A DNA stretch of 54,727 nucleotides, from assembly GCA_026984935.1 (NCBI GenBank), contig JALSRD010000058.1, positions 1 through 54,727 of the forward strand, in the 5' to 3' direction. The notes below the pieces were generated by a model. It ran no database searches. It was given only the letters and a program-made list of their open reading frames with translations, and was not told the DNA's origin. This document shows, piece by piece, positions 12,273 through 54,601 of the stretch. The position numbers were made by a program, and so were the translations under genes. Numbering within the stretch: position 1 is the first letter of the stretch; the number at the start of each line of letters is the position of its first letter. The DNA comes from Desulfobacterales bacterium. Its GTDB lineage: Bacteria > Desulfobacterota > Desulfobacteria > Desulfobacterales > JALSRD01.

Positions 12273-12532
12273 ATCTGAATCCTGCACGGACAATCTTGAA
12301 AATCCATAAAAATGTAAGTCTCATCTCATGGTTGTCTGTGAATTACGGCCGGTGTTTTTCTGCTCAATGGGTATGTTCGAAAACCTTCCATTTTTGCTTC
12401 AAAACGGTCTGCCCTGTGGAAGCGCCGACTCCGCCACATCTACCGCGTGGCAGGGCATTTGCGGTGGCTCACCACAGCTGCATGCCCGGCGCCTTGCATA
12501 CGCGGCAAACGCGACGCTTGAAAAATTCAGGT
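12273..12532 (+). repeat. MITE-like repeat, copy A (full length, diverged)
   Basis: This 260-bp copy has degenerate terminal inverted repeats (left ATCTGAATCCTGCA, right end ATTCAGGT) and internal similarity along its length to 31248-31506 in inverse orientation. Flanking triplets are ACG/ACT, an imperfect target duplication. It occupies nearly all of the gap between the TPR lipoprotein gene and mtnA. Its open frames are conserved only as repeat sequence. Confidence 0.85.
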
Positions 12533-17994: not shown

Positions 17995-18447
17995 GATCCT
18001 TTCGTCAGGGCCCGTTTTCGGCTGACAGGCTTTGATGATCTCGTAAAAAGTCCGGATTTTCCGTTTCCGCAGGCTTTTTCGGGAGCTGTGCGCCGGTGCG
18101 CCAAATCTCAGGAGCCCGTTGCAGGCTCCTCGAACAGCTTGGGATTTTGAATGCTCAACCGTGCACCGCGCTTTTCGACGAAAAGTCTTGCAATCGCCTC
18201 GAAACCGGCTTTTTACGCGTCTGTCAGGTTTTCGCAGTCTGAATTTTTCTGTTTTGCATTATGAACGATTTTGGGCTTCAGGCAAGTTGTTTTTCATGCG
18301 GCTGCAGAGGCATCCGGCCCGCGCCGCTTAAACCGGCGCCTTAGGGCTTCCGCAGGGCGTCAACGCACGCGCCGCATCTTACCGGCGCCCGGCCGGAAGG
18401 TTTGGGGCGACCCCAAAGCCGTATTGCCAACACAAAAAGGACCCTGC
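17995..18447. other. intergenic region between K+ channel and pcm genes
   Basis: This 453-bp stretch is between divergent genes. It contains repeat family 2 copy E (18042-18217). I see no convincing gene in the rest. The long frame from 18271 into pcm has no start support. Confidence 0.6.
18042..18217 (+). repeat. dispersed repeat family 2, copy E
   Basis: This 176-bp element is bounded by inverted ends CGTAAAAAGTC and GGCTTTTTACG. It aligns along its length, in inverse orientation, with 31063-31239 (for example the shared blocks TGCGCCAAATC and GAAAAGTCT). No coding potential is evident. Confidence 0.75.
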
Positions 18448-30597: not shown

Positions 30598-31062
30598 ACG
30601 CCTTCCTTGCTTGCATCGGTTTAAAGGCTGTCAATCAAACGTTCATTTCACCTTTTCAGCGGGTCTGCCCTGCTGATGCGAAGCACATGACAGACCTCTA
30701 TTGGTGCGCCTGCAATATGGATGCCATCACAACTTTGGCTTTGCAAGTTTTCTTGACTATTGATTTACAATAATAATCGGACGGTTACGGTTTAACGCCC
30801 ACATTGTTTCCCGGCCGGTAATTCATTTTGACCGGGCCACCTTGAACTATACCGGCTCCCACAAAACGCCGCGCAGCGAATGGCCCGATAACCCCTGCAG
30901 GTGGCTCCCTCTTGATGTGACCCCACGCAATGCTTATGGTTATGGGAACTTAGCCTGGACAAGTAAGTCCTCTTCCGCCGTGCCGGCGGTTTCACAAAGA
31001 ATCCCGGGAAAGGCTATCCGGATCAGACGGAGGCCATGATCGGAAGGCAAGATAGGCAGACT

Positions 31063-31239
31063 CGTAAAAAGTCGGTTTCGGGCGGATCGCGAGACTTTTC
31101 ACCGAAAAACACGGCGCGGGGTTGGCCCTTAAAAATTCCAATCTGTTTGAGGAGCTTGTGACAACGTTCTTGGGATTTGGCGCAACGACGCACAGTCTAC
31201 GAAAGGCTTTTAGCAAGCGAGAAGTCCGGACTTTTTACG
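31063..31239 (-). repeat. dispersed repeat family 2, copy F
   Basis: This 177-bp element has ends CGTAAAAAGTC and GACTTTTTACG, an exact 11-bp inverted pair. Its reverse complement aligns end to end with 18042-18217. Confidence 0.75.
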
Positions 31240-31247
31240 AAATTATC

Positions 31248-31506
31248 ACCTGAATTTTGCAAGCGTCGCGTTTGCCGCCTATACAAGGCGCAGGGCATGC
31301 AGCTGTCGTATACAGACGCAACTGCCCTGCAACACAGTAGAGGCGGTAAAATCGGCGCTCCCGCAGGGCAGACAATTTTGAAGTCAAAATGGAAGGTTTC
31401 CGAACATACCAATGACACTATAAAATATCGCGCTGCATCCATAGACAACCATGAGATAACATTACAATTTTATAAGTTTTCAAAATTGTCTGTGCATGAT
31501 TCAGGT
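31248..31506 (-). repeat. MITE-like repeat, copy B (full length)
   Basis: This 259-bp copy is in inverse orientation to copies A, C and D. Its ends are ACCTGAATTTTGCA and TGCATGATTCAGGT. It is flanked on both sides by ATC, a perfect 3-bp target duplication. It is the best reference for the undeleted interior. Confidence 0.88.
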
Positions 31507-31595
31507 ATCAAGACCATCAATACCGACAATCAGCCCGGCGTCCGGCCGGCAGAGGGGTCTGGGGCCCGCATGGGACCGTCTGCAAGGAGGAAATC

Positions 31596-32075
31596 ATGAA
31601 TCATATCGTGCACCAGTCGCGCATCACCATCACCCGCGAAAAAGGACCCACACGCATTGCTGAAATCGAGGGGTTTGCCGAGCCCGTTTATTACGGCGTA
31701 CACGGGGGCATTAAGGATTTTTACGGCGTTACCCCCGATGAAGAACATGCCGCCACCCTGGATCATATCGTGGGTGCGGTGGGCGGCTGAATGATGGGGA
31801 CACTGGCCATGGTACTGGCCGGCAAGAAAATCCGCACATTCAGGGACCGTTTCAGGGCCACCGTGACCGGGGATATCGAGGACGTGGACGGGACGCTGAA
31901 GATCACGCGCATCCAGGTTCACTACCACCTCAAGGTGGAAGCAGAAAAACGTACGGCCGCACGCGAAGCCCTGGGGAAATACCTGCCGCTCTGCCCGGGC
32001 GCGCAGAGCGTCATCGGCTGTATCGACATCCACCACACGCTCACGCTGGAAGACCTGCCGAATCCGCACGCATAA
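31596..32075 (+). CDS. OsmC-family selenoprotein (TGA-encoded Sec65)
   Basis: OsmC/Ohr proteins reduce organic peroxides through a peroxidatic and a resolving cysteine. Here the frame reads from ATG 31596 (AGGAGG 5 nt upstream) to a TGA at 31788-31790 and continues in the same frame to 32075, 159 residues in all. The TGA stands exactly where the family has its catalytic Cys, after AVGG and before MMGTLAM. A second conserved Cys (about residue 133, LPLCPG) remains. A hairpin fitting the bacterial SECIS pattern begins 12 nt after the TGA. Read naively it would be split into 64-aa and 94-aa pieces. A nonsense mutation is the alternative, but it would have had to hit the catalytic codon by chance. 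Confidence 0.88.
31803..31822 (+). promoter_or_regulatory. bacterial SECIS-like hairpin
   Basis: A 7-bp stem (CTGGCCA/TGGCCGG, one G-U pair) closes a 6-nt loop TGGTAC. The loop begins 19 nt after the TGA and has G at its second position. Known bacterial SECIS elements have the apical loop about 16-37 nt from the UGA with a G among its first two bases. Confidence 0.75.
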
Positions 32076-32409: not shown

Positions 32410-32490
32410 AAGCAGTAAAATTTTTTCATTCATTCTCTCCTTTCAACCCGGGATGGCCTTTCCCCCAAAAGGCCATCCCAATCTTTTTTT
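32410..32490 (+). ncRNA. candidate small regulatory RNA, about 80 nt
   Basis: Promoter and strong terminator bracket about 80 nt with no open frame on this strand. The unpaired middle contains CTCTCCTTTC (32435-32444), complementary to a Shine-Dalgarno core (AAAGGAGA), a common seed in translation-repressing RNAs. On the opposite strand the same bases make a Shine-Dalgarno for a 29-codon frame, a less likely reading. Expression is not shown by sequence alone. Confidence 0.5.
32450..32490 (+). terminator. rho-independent terminator
   Basis: A perfect 12-bp stem GGGATGGCCTTT/AAAGGCCATCCC (32450-32461/32468-32479) with a 6-nt C-rich loop is followed by AATC and seven T. There is no T-run on the other strand, so it acts rightward. 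Confidence 0.85.
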
Positions 32491-32523
32491 GCCGGCAGCC
32501 ATGCAGCCATTTACGGTTTTTTT

Positions 32524-32690
32524 ACCTGAATCTTGCACAGACAATTTTGAAAACTTATAAAATTGTCTGCCCTGCGGGAGCGCCGATTTTACCCCATCTA
32601 CTGTGTTGCAGGGCATTTGCGTCTGTATACTACAGCTGCATGCCCTGCGCCTTGTATAGGCGGCAAACGCGACGCTTGCAAGATTCAGGT
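32524..32690 (+). repeat. MITE-like repeat, copy C (internally deleted)
   Basis: This 167-bp copy has perfect 14-bp terminal inverted repeats (ACCTGAATCTTGCA / TGCAAGATTCAGGT) and TTT on both flanks. Relative to copy B it lacks about 92 bp between two AAAATTGT direct repeats and keeps one of them at the junction. Confidence 0.88.
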
Positions 32691-53867: not shown

Positions 53868-53908
53868 AACCCATATTCCGGAGTCAAAACAAACGAGCCA
53901 ATTGTTAT

Positions 53909-54094
53909 ACCTGAATCTTGCACAGACAATTTTGAAAACTTATAAAATTGTAATGTTATCTCATGGTTGTCTATGGATGCAGCGCGATATTTTTTAGCGT
54001 CATTGGTATGTTCGGAAACCTTCCATTTTGACTTCAAAATTGTCTACCCTGCGCCTTATATGTGCGGCAAACGCGACGCTTGCAAAATTCAGGT
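53909..54094 (+). repeat. MITE-like repeat, copy D (internally deleted)
   Basis: This 186-bp copy has left end ACCTGAATCTTGCA and right end TGCAAAATTCAGGT (one mismatch), with TAT on both flanks. It keeps the segment missing from copy C and lacks about 75 bp between the two CCCTGC direct repeats seen in copy B. Confidence 0.88.
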
Positions 54095-54601
54095 TATAGA
54101 TGGTTATAAGTCGCCATGCTGAGACTACAATGCTGGCGCCATATAAGAATTAAATGTAAATTCTGGCTGTCATGAAAAACCTTCCCAGAATAGGGGATAC
54201 AAGGTGAATACAGGTCGACCAGATTTTCAAGCTGCAGCTTCACACCACGCTCTGACCTACACCGACAGCGCCTTTTCCCTCAGCCACCTTGACCTGTCGA
54301 GAACCGACGATCCGTTCATTGCCGTCGTGACAAAACTGTTGGCGCAAAATTTTCACTGCCAGTCCAGGGTGCAGACTAAAAAAACGACTGCCATACAAAC
54401 TGTTGGTGCATAAATTCAATCTGGGACATGTCCAAAACCTGTGATTTTCGTTCTGGAATTCGATCACGGGCATCCGCGGTGATGATGATTCTCAACCTGC
54501 TTAAAAAAAATTTTGAACCTTTTGCAGGCCCACGGCAACCAATAAGCAGAATATTGAATGATCCGAGAGGAAGAGATGCAAAAATTAAGGCTGGCACGAT
54601 C
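54095..54601. other. right-edge intergenic region
   Basis: This stretch of about 500 bp after repeat copy D has no gene I can support. A plus-strand frame at 54204-54413 (69 aa) lacks family features. The frame of the edge gene is open upstream of 54602, so its true start could lie further left. Confidence 0.4.

Follow-up and report, generated by a model that had tools for sequence, protein, structure and literature searches.

The DNA analysed here, called the window throughout, is a stretch of 54,727 nucleotides from a Desulfobacterales bacterium (contig JALSRD010000058.1). On its forward strand, positions 31596-32075 hold an OsmC-domain (PF02566) gene that starts with ATG, ends with TAA (included in these coordinates) and contains a sole in-frame TGA, at codon 65 (31788-31790); with this codon read through as selenocysteine (Sec), the product has 159 residues, and the extent of the gene is supported by its translation and by 59 distinct homologues. 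A Shine-Dalgarno sequence, AAGGAGG (31584-31590), can be read 5 nt upstream of the ATG at 31596, and AGGAGG-type sites are also found upstream of the starts of most homologues. Downstream of the TGA lie a hairpin resembling a bacterial SECIS element (31803-31822) and, at 31992-31994, the TGC codon of C133 in the motif LPLCPG. The gene is solitary in the window, flanked by genes on the opposite strand. A preliminary description had seen here two halves of an OsmC protein in one frame, separated by a single TGA, and a hairpin beginning 12 nt after it with a G at the second loop position; the coordinates of both are exact, the translation agrees, and the 7-bp stem folds.

The surroundings of the gene contain several repeats. 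On either side of the gene lies a dispersed non-coding repeat, about 261 bp long, at 31247-31507 and, as a partial inverted copy, at 32509-32690; further copies in the window are at 12275-12532 and 53907-54098. There are at least 41 matches to this repeat in the 3.9 Mb genome, most of them 93-98% identical, and its terminal inverted repeats, TACCTGAAT(T/C)TTGCA, together with a TA at both ends, suggest a young MITE of the IS630/Tc1-mariner type. Another intergenic repeat, about 190 bp long, adjoins it directly (31057-31248, and 18033-18223 on the opposite strand; 74% identical). In the segment 32376-32479, a near-consensus promoter (TTGACA-16-TATAGT) overlaps an inverted repeat, TATCACAAAGTGATA; a strong terminator hairpin of 12 bp (32450-32479) comes next, with no clear open reading frame in between. 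The segment is possibly a small RNA or an attenuator, and a comparison of the segment with Rfam gave no match.

The read-through product scores 38.5 bits against the Pfam OsmC family PF02566 (cut-off 27.5). A phmmer search of the PDB with the single window sequence gave no OsmC match, while a profile built from 19 homologues did reach the solved OsmC structures, namely those of Thermus thermophilus (1ukk) and Escherichia coli (1nye and 1qwi). In all three, Sec65 falls on the peroxidatic Cys and C133-P134 on the second catalytic Cys-Pro, in line with the preliminary description, which had placed the TGA at the catalytic Cys of the family and had taken the Cys of LPLCPG for an intact resolving residue. 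As in the superfamily at large, the two catalytic positions lie about 65 residues apart, the second being followed by Pro; U65, C133 and P134 do not vary in any of the 59 distinct full-length sequences, and R20 is likewise invariant. For the AlphaFold2 model (pLDDT 87), the best PDB match is E. coli OsmC 1nye (Foldseek E 5e-7), and the top Foldseek matches listed are OsmC/Ohr proteins, although the superposition on solved OsmC is only moderate (TM 0.45-0.54, normalised by query length). In their solved structures, OsmC/Ohr proteins form intertwined dimers. The window protein thus shares with OsmC/Ohr (1nye, 1ukk) the fold and the two catalytic positions, but it has Sec where they have the peroxidatic Cys, and Asp56/His57 stand in the alignment at the position of a Glu that we take to be the catalytic Glu of OsmC/Ohr. 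Identity to characterised OsmC/Ohr proteins is 11-19%.

A single in-frame stop is typical of a sequencing error or of a young pseudogene, and a genome of the same genus (G001) lacks the gene. The searches were unbiased for TGA: all stops were read through, and the sole back-translated query peptide spanning the site, used in the search of one-genome-per-species contigs, carried Cys rather than TGA. The family was found at 40 loci in that search, in 26 of 146 genomes of relatives and in 35 of the 395 genomes that sample the phylum; plasmids yielded no relative. Cultured carriers include Desulfosarcina cetonica (L045) and Desulfacinum infernum (L054). In every retrieved homologue that covers the site, the aligned codon is TGA, even at identities as low as 35%. 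Among them are two loci in other phyla, in records under the names Nitrospinota and Planctomycetaceae; both genomes have selB. The only matches lacking TGA are five to distant Cys-OsmC domains, at 45-46 bits, and a fragment of 44 residues ending before the site; no Cys form of the window family, nor any other sense codon at the site, appears among the homologues retrieved from the contigs, the 146 relatives and the 395 phylum genomes. The remaining codons of the frame are conserved at 35-79% identity among homologues from independent assemblies, and the ribosome-binding sites are intact. Since the TGA is invariant across independent assemblies, we regard a sequencing error, or a pseudogene with a nonsense mutation, as excluded, with a vanishingly small probability left to this reading. 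Second in-frame stops in three homologues (L053, L062 and L088) were considered as second Sec codons and rejected; these stops lie at gene ends, where the match overruns the true stop.

The same alignment bears on the view that the gene makes two polypeptides, with termination at the UGA and a restart at the ATG directly after it. The main clade indeed has ATG ATG following the TGA, the usual layout for such a stop-restart arrangement, but L070 and L034 have CTG as the first codon after the TGA, and the distant clade reads CTG-ACC/ACG or CTG-CTC (CTC-ACG in L060), with no ATG or GTG there and the TGA kept. Retention of the TGA without an adjoining start codon excludes the stop-restart arrangement, which we rate as very improbable; a split would moreover separate both catalytic residues and cut through the helix predicted at residues 55-76 of the AlphaFold2 model, and it leaves the constraint on the downstream hairpin, described below, unexplained.

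The source genome (99% complete, 3.9 Mb) encodes the complete Sec system: selA (614 bits), selB (387 bits), a tRNA-Sec with anticodon UCA (selC, 76 bits) and selD, itself a selenoprotein gene, whose in-frame TGA lies within the classical motif KTCGUAAKV. Across the phylum selA is listed for 34 of the 35 carrier genomes, yet also for 355 of the 395 sampled, which makes the co-occurrence uninformative. Read-through would restore the frame whichever residue were inserted, and the UGA could in principle be read as another amino acid, through a reassigned code or simple read-through. However, TGA serves as the normal stop of many homologues of the same gene, which excludes a reassigned code, and the complete Sec system with its classical Sec-containing SelD, the coincidence of the position with the catalytic Cys of OsmC and the bSECIS-like hairpin downstream all speak against insertion of a residue other than Sec, to which we assign next to no probability. 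Decoding of UGA65 as Sec is thus strongly supported by the comparative sequence evidence.

The hairpin consists of a 7-bp stem (31803-31809 paired with 31816-31822) and a 6-nt loop, UGGUAC (31810-31815), with gaps of 12 nt from the UGA to the stem and 19 nt from the UGA to the loop. The bSECIS model allows a stem of 4-16 bp and a loop of 3-9 nt with G in its first two positions, located 16-37 nt from the UGA (PMC13188914); the window hairpin lies within all of these limits. The folding energy of 31785-31840 as a single sequence is ordinary (z -1.3), and against synonymous recoding the single-sequence z values are weak as well (mean -0.69; distant clade -0.97), so that the case for function rests on comparative tests. 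Third-base entropy at four-fold sites drops to 0.67 bits in codons 68-77 versus 1.64 bits in the gene's other codons (p=2e-4), and within the hairpin region this drop is borne by codons 69-76. In the 41 distinct sequences of the main clade, 96% of the cells of the stem are paired, compared to 3-53% with slid partners. Pair 16-35 at the stem base occurs as C-G (27 sequences) and as U-A (10), pair 18-33 inside the stem as G-C (36), C-G (two) and A-U (one), and the number of cells with compensatory changes in this clade was equalled by no shuffle. The distant clade has a different hairpin, displaced downstream by 6 nt; its loop is UGG(A/C)N, 100% of its cells are paired, and it shows compensatory changes of its own. 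G occupies loop position 2 in 40/41 distinct sequences of the main clade and 11/11 of the distant clade. Rfam gave no SECIS at the locus, nor any match in the window. The synonymous constraint and the compensatory pairs support the hairpin at 31803-31822 as a functional element of the bSECIS kind.

OsmC-like selenoproteins were first seen in Sargasso Sea data in 2005, as three sequences with the motif UXXT (PMC1088965); the GOS survey contained five, again UxxT (PMC2398784), and an inventory of 2026 with 119 families and subfamilies, which counts different Sec motifs within one domain as distinct subfamilies, lists the OsmC-like group once, as UxxT (PMC13188914). We infer from its name and motif that the NCBIfam model NF041052 (OsmC_like_Se) covers these published proteins. 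Its Sec-bearing members read FULLTQL or FUMFSQL, i.e. UxxT/S; they share with the window family an OsmC domain, a single Sec encoded by an in-frame TGA and the same active-site helix, but differ from it in motif, the window family having GU(M/L)(M/T/L)GT, or UxxG (GUMMGT in the window protein). The window protein scores only 14.4 bits against NF041052 (E 0.028), far under the curated cut-off of 95. From this score and the motif, we place the window family, by its sequences, as a separate Sec-OsmC subfamily of the known kind. Where the preliminary description had called the locus an OsmC-like selenoprotein of the reported type, the Sec reading is thus borne out and membership in the published group is not. 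In the phylum the family is the commoner of the two, with 35/395 genomes versus 4/395 for NF041052, and it is widespread among relatives of sulfate reducers. The UxxG subfamily was not found in the 2026 inventory (PMC13188914) and appears to be unlisted within the open-access literature; an earlier mention elsewhere is possible.

The nearest Cys relatives found are five proteins from the phylum with a Cys-OsmC domain (L123-L127; 48-52 bits), three of which lie in longer open frames of 468-720 residues; they differ from the window family in having Cys at the site and an aligned second Cys without the following Pro. In the tree they group with the window family (support 97/92), and NF041052 is placed further from that family than the Cys-OsmC domains are. 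A tree forced to a single clade of all Sec proteins is nonetheless not rejected (p-AU 0.138), and we therefore do not claim that the two subfamilies acquired Sec independently. We put forward tentatively, a little short of an even chance, a fuller picture in which GUxxGT defines a second OsmC selenoprotein subfamily with obligatory Sec, which may have acquired its Sec, at the same catalytic position, separately from the UxxT proteins and may use a dedicated module of AhpF-like reductase and rubrerythrin in anaerobes.

The genes next to the family in some relatives belong to redox metabolism. Several Desulfobacterales have it grouped with the genes of an ECF-type sigma factor and of redox proteins, namely rubrerythrin, flavodoxin, a ferredoxin-like protein, a rubredoxin-domain membrane protein and an AhpF/thioredoxin-reductase-like flavoprotein; in other relatives it directly follows an Rrf2 regulator, and the redox neighbourhood is limited to some relatives. 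A conserved redox-stress cluster surrounds the gene on six Desulfobacterales contigs (L028, L029, L030, L031, L032 and L035), with the ECF-type sigma factor accompanied at some loci by a small Cys-bearing protein, possibly its anti-sigma partner; this cluster may be a regulated peroxide-response unit.

Ohr/OsmC proteins use a pair of Cys to reduce hydroperoxides, and dithiols of the lipoyl or AhpD type regenerate them (PMC8945050). Judging by its family and by the conservation of the Sec/Cys pair, the window protein probably has peroxidase chemistry as well. With Sec at the peroxidatic position and the resolving Cys intact, an Ohr/OsmC-like cycle through an Se-S bond is the most likely. SelB carrying Sec-tRNA(Sec) would bind the hairpin 12 nt past the UGA and deliver Sec at that codon; the selenolate of Sec65 would then attack the hydroperoxide, C133 would resolve the selenenic acid as an Se-S bond, and the enzyme would return to its starting state with the help of a dithiol reductant. 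Our guess for this reductant is either a lipoyl-type dithiol as in Ohr/OsmC or an AhpF/thioredoxin-reductase-like partner, the latter encoded near the gene in some relatives. A selenoprotein that is no peroxidase, being YhfA-like or using the Sec-Cys pair in a carrier or binding role such as sulfur, selenium or metal transfer, is an unlikely reading but one that we take seriously, given that the function of several OsmC-fold groups is not known (PMC8945050), that the family is distant from characterised Ohr/OsmC at the low identity given above, and that Asp56/His57 replace the usual Glu. Against it stand the retention of both catalytic positions, as Sec and Cys, the peroxide-stress genes adjoining the gene in relatives, and the invariant R20, the putative equivalent of the Arg beside the peroxidatic Cys, which YhfA does not have (PMC8945050). 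We consider it highly probable that the gene product is an OsmC-type thiol/selenol peroxidase, with Sec inserted at UGA65.

The sequence evidence strongly supports the window case as a genuine selenoprotein with ordinary Sec biology. As the window protein and its relatives score below NCBI's OsmC selenoprotein model, the annotation of many anaerobe genomes probably presents them as broken or truncated genes. To our knowledge, Cys homologues exist for nearly all selenoproteins, and a family with catalytic Sec for which no Cys form was found is thus unusual. The UxxG family offers a clean system for testing why certain peroxidases retain selenium, and would add a likely peroxide defence to the relatives of sulfate reducers.
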